A stretch of DNA of 64,000 nt from the NCBI RefSeq assembly GCF_002848135.1, contig NZ_PKGB01000010.1, positions 1 through 64,000 of the forward strand. Reading direction: 5' to 3'. The notes under the pieces were generated by a model. It was not told where the DNA came from and did not search any database. It saw nothing but the letters and a program-made list of their open reading frames with translations. The stretch is from Hydrogenovibrio sp. SC-1 (GTDB lineage: Bacteria; Pseudomonadota; Gammaproteobacteria; Thiomicrospirales; Thiomicrospiraceae). A program made the position numbers and the translations under genes. Shown here piece after piece: positions 3,488 through 11,534 of this stretch (the first letter of the stretch is position 1; the number at the start of each line of letters is the position of its first letter).

Positions 3488-3515
3488 ATAGCCACCTCTG
3501 AGTGGCTATTTTTTT
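3488..3515 (+). terminator. Intrinsic terminator of fabAB
   Basis: Perfect 8-bp stem ATAGCCAC/GTGGCTAT with loop CTCTGA, followed by a run of T. It stands between fabB and the oppositely oriented lipoprotein gene. Confidence 0.9.
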
Positions 3516-3551: not shown

Positions 3552-4205
3552 CTAGCAAAACGGCCAAGGTGCATTGCAATTACCAGGTTGATTAGATTTC
3601 GACTTAGTGGGGGTATAGTGGCTGTTGCCACACTGACGAAGTTGTTTTTTATAACGAATTGACCGCTGAGTGACTTTGTAAGCCACTTTCTTTAGCCAGG
3701 GTTTATTGTTGTAAGTTTTTCTAGCAAAGCCACCCTGGCCTTCATGGTAGGCAAGATAAAGGTTAAAGGTATCATGGCGTGAGATGCCATTGCGTTTATA
3801 AGATTGATAGTTATACCACCCAATAAAGTCGACAGAATCATCAATGTTGCTTCGTCGCGCAGACCAGTTCCCAGTATCTTTTTGATAATCGTACCAAACC
3901 GGATCCTGAGCCTGACTATAACCGTAGGACGATGAGCGTCTGGGCAAAGGAATAATGCCTAAAAAATAGTCTCTCTCAGGTTTGGCATCATGGCTAAATC
4001 GAGACTCTTGGTGGATAAATGCCATACTAATATAGGCCGGTGTTCCCCATTTTTTTTCTGCATCATAGGCGGCATCCTCCCAATCTGAATCATGTTCAAA
4101 TAAGTAGCAGATATTATCATGCGTATCTTTGGGAGGCGTGCTGGAGCAGCCACCTAAAAAACCAATAAAAATGAATATCCACTTTGAGTATCTTGGTAAA
4201 ACCAT
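3552..4205 (-). CDS. Transglycosylase SLT-like lipoprotein
   Basis: Probably a peptidoglycan-acting lipoprotein of the lysozyme/SLT fold. A hydrophobic signal ends in lipobox LGGC. HQESRF carries a candidate catalytic Glu, SSSYGYSQAQDP resembles the SLT G-Y-x-Q segment, and YLAYHEGQGGF resembles the A-Y-N-x-G segment. The tail is basic and ends in a Pro/Asn/Cys-rich stretch. I chose the ATG at 4205 because CGGAA lies at good spacing before it; the ATG at 4220 has no ribosome binding site. It is the last gene of a minus-strand set with ftsY and the RMF-like protein. Enzyme activity is inferred from motifs only. Confidence 0.7.
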   Translation of the reverse strand: MVLPRYSKWIFIFIGFLGGCSSTPPKDTHDNICYLFEHDSDWEDAAYDAEKKWGTPAYISMAFIHQESRFSHDAKPERDYFLGIIPLPRRSSSYGYSQAQDPVWYDYQKDTGNWSARRSNIDDSVDFIGWYNYQSYKRNGISRHDTFNLYLAYHEGQGGFARKTYNNKPWLKKVAYKVTQRSIRYKKQLRQCGNSHYTPTKSKSNQPGNCNAPWPFC

Positions 4206-4234
4206 ATTAATTCCGTACATAAATTAAACTAGTA

Positions 4235-5164
4235 TTATTGAATATAGCGAAAATGATGCCTAAAAATCACATTTTTATTTTCGTCTAATACATCGATATG
4301 CCAATTACCTTCCCAGGCACTGGTTAATTGTTTCGTTGACCAGGTGCGATACACAGGGCTTTCGATTTTAAGTGCAACGGTCGCCATGGTTTGGTTCTGA
4401 TAAACCCACCGATGATAAATGGTTGTATTTTGAGCATTTTCAATTTCGGTAAAAAAGGCAAGCTTTCGAATATATTTCGGAACAACCGTTTCAACCGGCT
4501 CCACTAATTGACGGTTGCTTACGGATTGACCGAGTTGAGCCTGTCTGATTTTGATCGAACTTGACATAACAGGCGATAACTTGACCTGAGTCTCATTCAG
4601 CTGTTTTTGCTTTTGGGAACGTGTAAGTTGTAAATCCTGTCGCTGTTGATCACTTAGCAGCTCCAAGCTTTGCTGTGGTTTGACTGGCTGTTGTTGTCTG
4701 ACGTCTGGTTGTGATTCTGTTGCTGGATTGACCAACGCCTTATCGGTGGCGACCTGAGTCTCATGGCTTTTTAAACTAAGGGATTCGGGGGTAATTCCCG
4801 GGGTAGAAGTGACCAGGCCTGGTTCTTTTTCAACCTGTGTCTGGGGTTGATCAATTTTTTGCTGTTGCTGTTGTTGCGCATCTTGTTTTTGAGTGATCAT
4901 TAAAGAGGCCGTACCAATCCCGGCTAAAATCATCATTAAATACCACGCAAACCGTTGACGCCAAGGAGTGCGTTGTTGATCTTCTTCGCCATTCTTTAAT
5001 TCTTCTTGGAGTTGTTCCCAGCCCATTTGAAAATAGGTGCGCATTTCACGGTCTTGGCGGATTTGGCTGGGCATATGTGATTGTGGTTTGCCTTCCAGTG
5101 CCAGTCGATAGCCTTTTTTAAACGCATAGTGATAGTGTGCATTGTCCGTTTCAGGCAATTTCAT
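4235..5164 (-). CDS. RMF-like / transmembrane / DUF2914 fusion protein
   Basis: Three parts are visible in 309 residues. Residues about 10-52 (AFKKGYRLALEG, then P, then MGWEQ) align in spacing with ribosome modulation factor (AHQRGY..G..G...CP...GGW). Residues 71-90 form one transmembrane helix. A long Gln-rich linker follows, and residues about 225-309 (FFTEIENAQ, YHRWVYQNQ, YRTWSTKQLTSAWEGNW) match DUF2914. The expected topology is a cytoplasmic RMF-like part and a periplasmic DUF2914 part, possibly reached after the linker. It lies 9 bases after ftsY, which handles membrane targeting of ribosomes. The function is unknown. A CCAGGCCTGG copy sits in the linker. Confidence 0.75.
   Translation of the reverse strand: MKLPETDNAHYHYAFKKGYRLALEGKPQSHMPSQIRQDREMRTYFQMGWEQLQEELKNGEEDQQRTPWRQRFAWYLMMILAGIGTASLMITQKQDAQQQQQQKIDQPQTQVEKEPGLVTSTPGITPESLSLKSHETQVATDKALVNPATESQPDVRQQQPVKPQQSLELLSDQQRQDLQLTRSQKQKQLNETQVKLSPVMSSSIKIRQAQLGQSVSNRQLVEPVETVVPKYIRKLAFFTEIENAQNTTIYHRWVYQNQTMATVALKIESPVYRTWSTKQLTSAWEGNWHIDVLDENKNVIFRHHFRYIQ
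4813..4822. repeat. CCAGGCCTGG palindrome, copy 1
   Basis: Exact copy in the Gln-rich linker of the RMF-like/DUF2914 gene, read there as Pro-Gly-Leu (minus strand). Confidence 0.9.
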
Positions 5165-5173
5165 AACTTTGGA

Positions 5174-6253
5174 TTATGAGGTTTCAGAGTCATCAAATAA
5201 AGCTTCAGTAAACTGTTCCGCATCAAACGGTCTTAAGTCTTCGATGGCTTCGCCAACACCGATAAAACGAACCGGGATGACCAATTTTTCGGCAAGGGCA
5301 AATAAAATCCCACCCTTAGCCGTTCCATCCAACTTGGTGAGTGTGAGTCCAGTCACGCCAACCGCTTTGTGAAATTGTTGCGCTTGGTTAATCGCATTTT
5401 GTCCGGTACTGGCATCTAATACCAACATCACCTCATGCGGCGCGTCTCCATCCACCTTTTGGATAACCCGTTTTACCTTCTTTAATTCTTCCATTAGGTT
5501 ATCTTGTGTGTGTAGTCTACCGGCGGTGTCCGCAATCACTACATCGATGTTCTTAGCGGTGGCAGATTGTACCGCATCAAAAATGACAGCCGCTGAATCG
5601 GCTCCCGTTTTCTGAGCGATAACGGGAATTTGATTGCGTTCGCCCCAGGTTTGTAATTGCTCAACCGCGGCTGCTCGAAACGTATCTCCAGCCGCCAACA
5701 TGACTGATTTACCTTCATTTTGCAACTGTTTGGCAAGCTTACCTATGGTGGTGGTTTTGCCCACGCCATTGACGCCCACCATTAAAATCACATAAGGATT
5801 TGACTGAGCGGGGATATCTAACGAAACCGATACAGGGGTTAACAGTTGGTTAAGTTGTTGTTTGAGCGCGTTCATCAACGCCTCTGGGTGCTTTAACTCT
5901 TTTCTGGAAACCTGCTCGGTCAATTGCTGAATGATTTTATCGGTTGCATCAATACCAATGTCAGCACTGAGTAATAACATTTCCAACTCTTCCAGCAGGT
6001 CATCATCAATTTCCTTACGACCTAACACCAAGCGGCTCAAACCATCCGTTAGCCCAGAACGGGTCTTGGTTAAACTGTTTTTGAGCTTGGAAAACCAACC
6101 AGGCCTGGAGGGTTTGGCCTGACTATCGGTAGACGAGTCAACCGCTTGAGGTGACGCAGCTTCAGTTGAAGAGGCCTCCAAAGAATCGATTTCTGAGCTT
6201 TTGTCTGCAGCTTCTGAAGGCTGATTTTTTGAACGTTTTAAAAAACTAAGCAT
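5174..6253 (-). CDS. ftsY: Signal recognition particle receptor FtsY
   Basis: SRP-receptor GTPase that delivers ribosome-nascent chain complexes to the inner-membrane translocon. An acidic, Ser/Ala-rich A-domain of about 50 residues is followed by the N domain and the G domain: GVNGVGKTTTIGKL (P-loop), DTFRAAAVEQL, DTAGRL and TKLDGTAKGG. I prefer the internal ATG at 6253 (MLSFLKRSK), which resembles other FtsY starts; an in-frame ATG at 6280 would add nine residues. Neither has a strong Shine-Dalgarno. It is transcribed divergently from the M16 peptidase pair. A CCAGGCCTGG copy lies in the A-domain linker. Confidence 0.95.
   Translation of the reverse strand: MLSFLKRSKNQPSEAADKSSEIDSLEASSTEAASPQAVDSSTDSQAKPSRPGWFSKLKNSLTKTRSGLTDGLSRLVLGRKEIDDDLLEELEMLLLSADIGIDATDKIIQQLTEQVSRKELKHPEALMNALKQQLNQLLTPVSVSLDIPAQSNPYVILMVGVNGVGKTTTIGKLAKQLQNEGKSVMLAAGDTFRAAAVEQLQTWGERNQIPVIAQKTGADSAAVIFDAVQSATAKNIDVVIADTAGRLHTQDNLMEELKKVKRVIQKVDGDAPHEVMLVLDASTGQNAINQAQQFHKAVGVTGLTLTKLDGTAKGGILFALAEKLVIPVRFIGVGEAIEDLRPFDAEQFTEALFDDSETS
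6099..6108. repeat. CCAGGCCTGG palindrome, copy 2
   Basis: Exact copy in the variable linker between the A and N domains of ftsY, read as Arg-Pro-Gly (minus strand). Confidence 0.9.
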
Positions 6254-6412
6254 AAAGATTGGTTGATATCCCTGTAGCATTCTTTCAAGTTTCGTTCATA
6301 CTTGAACACTTGATTTGCGTTATATTATGGAGCCTGAACACGTTATTAGCCAACCATTATAAATCAAAACTAACAGATTTGAGAGGATTCCCACCGGATG
6401 AGGAATAGAAAG

Positions 6413-9197: not shown

Positions 9198-11534
9198 ATG
9201 CTAAAACGTTACTTGCACGTCTGTGTGCTCGCGTCGTTATGGTTGACGATGGCTAGCGTTTCGATGGGCGCTTATGCTGCCCATCCAGCCCCGTCAGTTC
9301 AGTCCCTCGAAAAGGTTACCCTCAAACTCAAGTGGTTTCACCAGTTTCAGTTTGCAGGCTACTATGCGGCCAAAAAACAAGGCTATTTTCTGGAAGAAGG
9401 TTTGGATGTTGATATCCGAGAACGCGACTTTCATGAAAATACCATTCAAGAAGTGATCAGCGGACAGGTTGACTATAGTATTGCCGATTCGGTTTTATTG
9501 TTATACCAAGCGAAAGGGCATCCGGTTGTTATTGTCGCGCCGATTTTTCAGCATTCCCCTCAAGTGTTATACACCTTAGCCAGCTCTGGCATTAGTAGTC
9601 CTTATGCTTTAAAAAACAAGAAAATGGGCTTTTATAAAAAAGATACCGATGGTTTTTCAGTCTTGGCCATGTTAGAGCAGGCTGGCATTAATCCGACGGT
9701 TCAACGTACCTTGAAAACGGATAAACGTATGTTGATTCGAGGCGAGGTGGATGCGATTGCGGGTTATTCAACTAATGAAGCCTATTTTTTCCGTCAGCAA
9801 GGCATCGATATTAATATTATCAATCCGATGCACTATGGTATTGATACCTATGGCGATATGTTATTTACTAGCCAATCTGAGCAGGAAAATCACCCTGAAA
9901 GAGTGGCAAAAATGCGCCGAGCAACTATTCGAGGCTGGCAGTATGCCATGGAGCATAAGGCTGAAATAGCACGTCATATTATCGAATACTATTCGGCAAC
10001 GAAAAGTTTTGAGCATCTCATGTTTGAAGCCAATGCGATTGAAGAAGTAATGTCGTTGAAGACCACACCCATTGGTACTTTGGATGAAGGGCGACTCCAA
10101 TTTATTTCTGACTTATTTCGAACCCAAGGACTCATCGAAAACCCGATTGATTTATCAAAGGGTATTTATCGTCCAATTCGGAGTGCAATCGCATTTACCC
10201 CACAAGAAAAAGCCTGGTTGAAAGCACATCCAGTTATTCGAGTTGGGGTTGATCGAGCCTATGCCCCTTTAGAGTTTGTCGATGAGCAAGGCCAATATCA
10301 AGGTATGGCAAATGATTTGTTTAAATTTATTGAGCAACAAACTGGGAGTGAGTTCCAACCTGCACTTAATCTTAACTGGTCGGAGACTATGGAAGCCATT
10401 CAAGCAAAACAGTTGGATGTCTTATCCGCAGTCATTTCTTCTGAGGCTAGACAGGGCTACTTAGAATTTACTTTGCCTTACTTTAAAGCACCGATGGTGA
10501 TTGCCGCGCGGGAAGGCTCACCTTATATTGCCGATATGTCACAAATTGATGGCAAACGCATTGCTGTGGTCAAAGATTATGCGGCGCATGATAAAATGCG
10601 AAACCTCTTCCCAAATCAACCTCTGTTATTGGTTTCTTCTGTCCACACTGGGCTAGATGCAGTTGCTTCTGGGGAGGCCTATGGCTATGTTGATAATGTT
10701 GCGGTGATTGGTCACAGTATCAAGTCATTGGGCTTGACTAATTTGCAAATAGTGAGCGAACTACCTTTTAGCGCCGATATTGCCATTGCTATCCGTAAGG
10801 ATTGGCCGATTTTACATTCCATTTTACAAAAAACCTTGCAGCAGATGCCCGCAAGGCAAAAAGCAGAAATGACTAATCAATGGTTACAGGTGACATATCA
10901 AAAGCGCTATAACTGGGAACAGCTCTTTGCCATTTTTACGCCGATTTTACTGATTTTGGTCGTGGTGATATTTTATAACCGTAAGCTGAGGCAATCGCAG
11001 CAAGATTTGCAAAAAGCCAATATGGCGCTGTCCCGCTTATCGGTAACTGATTATTTGACCGGGGTCTATAATCGCCAATACTTGGACCAACGCTTGGAAG
11101 AGGAATTATCTCGTATCCAACGTCACCCGGCACCTTTAAGTTTGGTGATGATGGATTTGGATCACTTTAAGCACGTTAATGACGACTATGGTCATTTAAT
11201 CGGCGACAAAATTTTAATCCAAGCGACCCAAGTGATTCAGAATCGCGTGCGTAAGACCGATGTATTTGGCCGCTGGGGCGGCGAGGAATTTATTTTAATA
11301 TGCCCTGATACCAACCTATTACAGGCGCAGCAATTATCGGAAAAGATTCGGAAGGCAATCGAAGCAGAAACCTATCCTGAGCAAATTCAACAGACCATTA
11401 GTTTAGGGGTCGCTGAATATCAATCTAAGGAATTAATGAGCCAATTGGTGAATCGGGCAGATGAAAATATGTATCATGCCAAGCAACAAGGTCGAAATCA
11501 AGTTTATGCTGGAGTCGTGACGGATGGCGGTTAG
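9198..11534 (+). CDS. Periplasmic NMT1-like + SBP3 sensor diguanylate cyclase
   Basis: Predicted membrane receptor making c-di-GMP. Order: signal peptide (1-28), an NMT1/THI5-like binding domain (about 40-290, with KWFHQFQFAGYYAA), an SBP_bac_3 domain (about 345-565, beginning VIRVGVDRAYAPLEF), one transmembrane helix (about 574-595) and a cytoplasmic GGDEF domain. The active site is RWGGEEF, and RKTD five residues upstream is an inhibitory I-site. The NMT1-like part resembles pyrimidine/thiamine-precursor binding proteins, but the ligand is unknown. GAGG precedes the ATG. The 3' end overlaps rsmD by 11 bases. A paralogue with an added PAS lies at 21822. Confidence 0.88.
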   Translation: MLKRYLHVCVLASLWLTMASVSMGAYAAHPAPSVQSLEKVTLKLKWFHQFQFAGYYAAKKQGYFLEEGLDVDIRERDFHENTIQEVISGQVDYSIADSVLLLYQAKGHPVVIVAPIFQHSPQVLYTLASSGISSPYALKNKKMGFYKKDTDGFSVLAMLEQAGINPTVQRTLKTDKRMLIRGEVDAIAGYSTNEAYFFRQQGIDINIINPMHYGIDTYGDMLFTSQSEQENHPERVAKMRRATIRGWQYAMEHKAEIARHIIEYYSATKSFEHLMFEANAIEEVMSLKTTPIGTLDEGRLQFISDLFRTQGLIENPIDLSKGIYRPIRSAIAFTPQEKAWLKAHPVIRVGVDRAYAPLEFVDEQGQYQGMANDLFKFIEQQTGSEFQPALNLNWSETMEAIQAKQLDVLSAVISSEARQGYLEFTLPYFKAPMVIAAREGSPYIADMSQIDGKRIAVVKDYAAHDKMRNLFPNQPLLLVSSVHTGLDAVASGEAYGYVDNVAVIGHSIKSLGLTNLQIVSELPFSADIAIAIRKDWPILHSILQKTLQQMPARQKAEMTNQWLQVTYQKRYNWEQLFAIFTPILLILVVVIFYNRKLRQSQQDLQKANMALSRLSVTDYLTGVYNRQYLDQRLEEELSRIQRHPAPLSLVMMDLDHFKHVNDDYGHLIGDKILIQATQVIQNRVRKTDVFGRWGGEEFILICPDTNLLQAQQLSEKIRKAIEAETYPEQIQQTISLGVAEYQSKELMSQLVNRADENMYHAKQQGRNQVYAGVVTDGG

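Follow-up and report, generated by a model that had tools for sequence, protein, structure and literature searches.

We examined a gene of Hydrogenovibrio sp. SC-1, here called X, whose product joins an N-terminal helical hairpin to a membrane helix, a glutamine-rich linker and a DUF2914 domain. On the evidence of profile comparisons and a predicted structure, the hairpin is a remote homologue of ribosome modulation factor (RMF). Residue comparisons indicate that the fold of RMF is retained in X and that its known grip on 16S rRNA is lost, and X probably does not hibernate ribosomes in the known way of RMF. X is a genuine design that has apparently gone undescribed so far.

The window, meaning the whole stretch of DNA that was analysed, comprises 64,000 nucleotides (positions 1 to 64,000 of contig NZ_PKGB01000010.1). 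Within it, ftsY, X and a gene for an SLT_4 enzyme form three co-directional genes with intergenic gaps of 9 and 14 nt.

3488..3509, (-) strand: terminator-like hairpin 3' of the SLT_4 gene, a pattern match only
3552..4220, (-) strand: SLT_4 lytic transglycosylase, probable lipoprotein (by eye), 14 nt downstream of X
4235..5164, (-) strand: gene X (RMF-like domain - membrane helix - linker - DUF2914), 309 aa, second of ftsY-X-SLT_4
5174..6280, (-) strand: ftsY (SRP receptor GTPase), 9 nt upstream of X

The hairpin at 3488..3509 is a possible end of the operon. Promoter scanning returned sites that were no more numerous than in shuffles. The protein was divided into four parts, as follows.

4997..5140, (-) strand: RMF-like helical hairpin, residues about 9-56, putatively cytosolic
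4895..4951, (-) strand: membrane helix, residues 72-90, hydrophobic
4577..4894, (-) strand: Gln-rich linker, residues 91-196, mostly of low confidence in the predicted model
4235..4576, (-) strand: DUF2914 domain, residues 197-309 plus stop, predicted Ig-like beta sandwich, with the Pfam match at 4247-4426

An earlier sequence-only reading of this DNA had claimed a membrane helix, a Gln-rich linker and a DUF2914 domain in a protein next to ftsY, and all of these were borne out. The helix at residues 72-90 is hydrophobic, the linker is visible in the translation, ftsY lies 9 nt upstream, and Pfam DUF2914 matched residues 247-306 with E=2.9e-18 (65.8 bits vs a cut-off of 23.6). The predicted full-length model (mean pLDDT 66 overall) contained two helices, at 9-24 and 39-62, then a long one spanning 68-104, and a beta sandwich that was confidently predicted at the C-terminus; its linker was mostly of low confidence. 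Mean pairwise identity among 32 members was highest in the RMF-like core (54%), followed by the membrane helix (48%), DUF2914 (41%) and the linker (20%), the last taken over residues 93-170 with 317 of 496 pairs comparable. Residues W74, G82, T85 and A86 of the membrane helix were conserved in at least 90% of 31 members. By these alignments, the conserved core of X is the hairpin together with the membrane helix. We infer that X is bitopic in the inner membrane with its N-terminus inside, on the basis of a modest charge bias (four K/R among the 15 residues preceding the helix, two after it) and of DUF2914 proteins that look secreted by eye.

Homology of the N-terminus to RMF was assessed at the level of the single protein, the family and the structure. 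The Pfam RMF profile did not match the window protein at E<=10, and none was found at E<=1 in the genome of the window. The NCBIfam RMF profile matched it with E=0.034 for the whole protein and 0.002 for the first 100 aa (18 bits vs a cut-off of 40). A single-sequence phmmer search of the PDB with the window protein returned only weak linker-region matches, to fermitin (E 0.22 and 0.58). As a six-frame search of 62 genomes of the family placed none (0/62) over the Pfam RMF cut-off, the homology to RMF is a remote one. When 31 family members were scanned singly, Pfam RMF matched 13 (best E 1.7e-4; next-best family 2/31) and NCBIfam RMF matched 24 (best E 5e-5; next-best family 6/31). These 31 form our alignment and are not all of the 52 members found later; the alignment excludes L005 (X in two frames), L011 (whose start the script missed), L018, L020 (cut at contig end), L024 and near-duplicate loci. 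The sequence-only reading had placed an RMF-like region at residues about 10-52 and had named an RMF profile search as one way to refute it. Its region held at the family and structure level, as a hairpin at about 9-56, whereas the single-sequence Pfam match failed; likewise, the profile search left the window protein unmatched in Pfam but found the 13 and 24 members given above.

An HMM of the first 60 columns of the family was searched against 5,263 ORFs at E<=10, a set enriched for RMF because RMF loci had been fetched into it. Beyond the training loci, it recovered only more family members and the stand-alone RMF-type loci L064-L071, the latter with E 7.5e-4 to 0.034 (L123 duplicates L071). 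The N-termini of the related proteins of G118 and G108, described below, were not found by this HMM, and the RMF match there comes from Pfam. Comparison by hhalign with six RMFs gave a probability of 92.6% for the domain and 89.9% for the whole N-terminus, vs 0.1% for the reversed profile and 6.4% for the best of 100 column shuffles. The profile-profile aligned core spans 42 columns, with a loop 3 residues longer than in RMF. A chance resemblance was ruled out by the shuffle, reversal and reciprocal controls.

Against PDB sequences, the best match of the family profile was RMF 2JRM (E=0.031), followed by an unrelated chain (0.10); RMF 4V8G scored 0.77. AlphaFold2 predicted helices at 9-24 and 39-64 in the first 100 residues of X (pLDDT 77). 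When this predicted N-terminus was compared with 350,542 chains by Foldseek, a structural check that the sequence-only reading had proposed, the RMF chains 2jrm and 9iot ranked first and second, with probabilities of 0.98 and 0.80 and E-values (0.15 and 0.91) that are not significant alone; all other chains had probabilities of 0.10 or less.

The residues of RMF, numbered as in the E. coli protein in the accessible text of PMC8126665, were compared with 31 aligned members of X. Structural residues were kept: A12, G16 and G43 in 31/31, and G23 and P30 in 30/31. The W44 position was aromatic in 30 members (W in 26, Y or F in 4), and the W40 position was F or Y in 29 and never W. Residues R3, K5, C29 and R45 were replaced, each being retained in 0/31, and the R11 position was not R in 28/31. 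The replacement was D or E at R3 in 28/31 and E or D at R45 in 20/31. R3 and K5 were placed in X by ungapped extension, the profile alignment beginning at RMF residue 9. The charge of the N-terminal tail, which is independent of that placement, was -3 to +1 in the 31 members vs +2 to +5 in six RMFs, and that of the domain -2 to +3 vs +4 to +6.

According to the accessible text of PMC8126665, mutagenesis of E. coli RMF found R3, K5, R11, C29 and R45 each to be required for normal dimer formation, with faint dimerisation only in R45A. The same text assigns contacts of R3 and K5 to helix 28 and of R45 to the anti-SD sequence, and reports that C29 and the first five residues are required for ribosome binding and that alanine mutants of R3, K5, R11 and R45 retain it. 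Because the contact residues of the known rRNA grip are lost, X would not be expected to dimerise ribosomes in the manner of RMF, and by its residues we do not read it as a 100S factor. As the alanine mutants still bind, ribosome binding by X, perhaps in another mode, is possible, and so is tethering. The earlier proposal that X holds or silences ribosomes found no support, with R3, K5, C29 and R45 gone in 31/31 and the tail charge lost. In the numbering of X itself, K16 is invariant and R20, R36 and R42 are each present in at least 90% of the family; another ligand surface is therefore likely. G118 and G108 carry K and R, respectively, at the R45 position and C29 is kept in G118 (aligned by eye); proteins of this architecture have therefore not lost the RMF residues uniformly.

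The distribution of X was surveyed in the 62 family genomes, in 58 of which ftsY was found at E<=1e-60. X lay directly behind ftsY on the same strand in 52 of the 58, at -16 to +99 nt, with script-chosen start codons such that single gaps may err by some codons; a single-sequence search of genome contigs gave 4 loci. G052 and G060, both among the 52, carry a strongly diverged X, with E-values of 0.013 and 0.0008 against the family HMM. SLT_4 followed X in 49 of the 52, in G017 via a second contig piece; it was not found behind X in G006 and G009, and the contig ends in G057. In the other 6 of 58 genomes, X was absent and SLT_4 was directly behind ftsY. A Thiomicrorhabdus MAG (G034; L005 and L096) has X in two reading frames, by frameshift or assembly error. 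The linkage of ftsY and X, by itself, is no proof of shared function.

The same order of RMF-like part, membrane helix and DUF2914 was present in two other sampled families (G118 and G108), so that a survey of the architecture and its ftsY linkage, suggested in the sequence-only reading, turned up both. In these two genomes the RMF and DUF2914 matches share one frame, with Pfam RMF E-values of 4.1e-5 and 0.0027, below the cut-off. A profile of the RMF-like part plus membrane helix, trained on rows among which were the window, G108 and G118, was matched at full length within one position only by G108, G118 and three members of the family; all remaining matches at E<=0.05 were partial and included stand-alone RMFs, for 20 of 321 genomes in all. 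The gene order in G118 is ftsY-ftsE-ftsX-X-rpoH (L115:5006-9337; ftsE and rpoH identified by eye, through Pfam domains or sequence). Unlike in G118, ftsE, ftsX and rpoH are not at this place in the window. On the other side of ftsY, both have two M16-peptidase genes and an rsmD-like gene (named by eye), and these shared surroundings suggest inheritance of X at the locus instead of two separate gains. The window also encodes, at 9198-11534, (+) strand, between its M16 peptidase genes and its rsmD-like gene, a 778-aa protein with a C-terminal diguanylate-cyclase-like GGDEF domain (by eye); G118 has none there. In G108, X adjoins the gene of an AFG1-type ATPase, a family that we take to be linked to ZapE, and no ftsY was present within the 9 kb read. 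A tblastn search with FtsY at E<=1e-20 matched in L115 only, among L035-L063 (29 class loci, about 1.5 kb each side), L076, L079, L115, L116 and 40 DUF2914 stretches.

DUF2914 was found in 84 of the 321 genomes of the class sample. Within the family, Pfam matches at E<=1e-3 occurred in 47 of 62 genomes (45 over the cut-off), all of them among the 52 with X; in 5 of the 52, the C-terminus of X has diverged and DUF2914 has no Pfam match at that threshold. Foldseek ranked UNC119 first for the DUF2914 fold (E=1.2e-6, but TM-score 0.39 of the target), and VIA-align ranked a xylosyltransferase 1 domain first (Z 12.1), followed by many unrelated Ig-like domains. The fold is therefore read as an Ig-like sandwich only. 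A further 40 DUF2914 stretches were picked mainly for long frames and not at random, and L146 yielded no DUF2914 ORF. L138, L147 and L148 (by eye also L047, L142 and L161) encode DUF2914 membrane proteins that start with a TLKIKI-like motif followed by a hydrophobic helix; DUF2914 has thus been joined to more than one N-terminal module. No paper on the function of DUF2914 was found by title in open-licence literature.

The genome of the window has a short-type HPF (115-aa frame), which was searched for in this genome only; no free RMF and no long-HPF C-terminal domain were found in it. Among the 321 class genomes, RMF was matched in 16 at E<=1e-3 and in 12 over the Pfam cut-off, with long HPF in none. 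At least one of those 12, G164, has a fusion to an RND pump and not a free RMF. With RMF over the cut-off in 12/321, its absence is ordinary in the class and therefore no argument for a ribosome-silencing role of X. The idea that X fills the gap of a missing RMF was rejected on the same RMF and long-HPF counts. The G164 protein (L073:1480-3129, G164:C300) is an RND efflux pump subunit, at the membrane, with a C-terminal RMF-like hairpin (31.7 vs 27.9 bits for the Pfam cut-off), which shows the fold appended as a module to another protein. A short protein of G133 (L077:1438-1824, G133:C29) has an RMF-like domain that scores below the Pfam RMF cut-off (E=7.1e-5); close to its C-terminus a hydrophobic stretch is visible by eye.

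We favour a reading of X, to which we give about an even chance, as a bitopic adaptor with an RMF-fold docking hairpin inside and DUF2914 outside on a flexible linker; its topology, docking role, periplasmic action and partner are the parts that we infer. The RMF fold would have been put to new use as a docking module at the cytosolic side of the membrane. Having lost the known rRNA grip of RMF, the hairpin would probably bind a protein at the membrane, or else another RNA or ribosome surface there. The linker, being flexible, would allow DUF2914 to act in the periplasm, perhaps together with SLT_4 on the cell wall. X would in this way link the periplasm to a partner in the cytosol, perhaps one from the FtsY targeting machinery or from envelope growth.

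That X is a factor of the envelope or of division is an unlikely alternative. Here, DUF2914 would be the important end, acting with SLT_4 and ancestrally with FtsEX, and the hairpin would sense a cytosolic division or growth protein. This agrees with SLT_4 behind X in 49/52 genomes, with the place of X after ftsE and ftsX in G118 and with the AFG1-type neighbour in G108. However, ftsY and SLT_4 occur together without X in 6/58 genomes, so SLT_4 does not need X, and DUF2914 is less conserved than the hairpin and unmatched by Pfam in 5/52.

We consider it rather unlikely that X is a membrane-anchored, non-dimerising binder of 30S that holds or silences ribosomes near FtsY, as is thought for YqjD, ElaB and YgaM. 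C29 and the basic N-terminal tail, required for binding by RMF, are absent in 31/31 members, and the absence of RMF is ordinary in the class (over the cut-off in 12/321; long HPF 0/321). In favour of this reading are the RMF homology, the membrane anchor, the ftsY linkage in 52/58 genomes, a genome with short-type HPF and no free RMF or long HPF, and the precedent of YqjD, described in the accessible text of PMC10502375 as membrane-bound and associating with 30S.

It is quite improbable that X, as an RMF descendant tethered in the membrane, binds ribosomes or nascent complexes at the FtsY docking site without dimerising them and relays an envelope signal from periplasmic DUF2914 to membrane protein synthesis. 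If true, this would make X a membrane-spanning switch that acts on translation at the membrane. An RMF resemblance that arose by convergence, in a short helical hairpin carrying G..G and GW motifs, and not by common descent would fit the 0/62 genomes over the Pfam cut-off, the 42-column core with its longer loop and the Foldseek E-values, but is very improbable given an hhalign probability of 92.6% vs at most 6.4% in 100 shuffles and the first rank of RMF in Pfam and NCBIfam and in searches of the PDB by sequence and by structure.

RMF is usually treated as a small dedicated hibernation protein. X resembles RMF (PF04957 / NF011162) in the two-helix hairpin with its structural residues kept. 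RMF is small, soluble and stand-alone, whereas X has 309 aa with a membrane helix and DUF2914, is without R3, K5, C29, R45 and the basic tail, has a loop 3 residues longer and falls below the curated cut-offs. An RMF-like match, as X cautions, does not imply hibernation. The related, small Rmf/CrpP family (NF041886) matched weakly in 2 of 31 members (best E 0.047); its proteins are presumably curated as small and stand-alone, whereas X is a membrane fusion. No description of an RMF membrane fusion or of the RMF-like architecture of X was found in the open-licence literature searched, in keeping with the sequence-only reading, which knew of none. Here the RMF fold appears as a component of membrane proteins that, on the favoured adaptor reading, is retained for a task without its known rRNA contacts; the gene for X lies next to that of the SRP receptor across a bacterial family.

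With DUF2914 proteins X shares its C-terminal domain, which is well over the cut-off of PF11141. The other DUF2914 proteins examined were by eye mostly short and exported, or had other N-terminal parts, unlike X; outside the X family, and at the thresholds used in the 321 class genomes, an RMF-like part was joined to DUF2914 only in G118 and G108. X provides a first lead for the uncharacterised DUF2914 family. YqjD, ElaB and YgaM, whose families were not among the Pfam and NCBIfam matches of X, share with it a membrane-bound state and a cytosolic N-terminus, the latter predicted for X, and are tied to ribosome hibernation in the accessible text of PMC10502375. They are C-tail anchored according to that text, whereas the helix of X lies at 72-90 of 309 residues with a large domain after it. 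X offers a defined, testable protein for the question of why some ribosome-related factors are membrane-bound.
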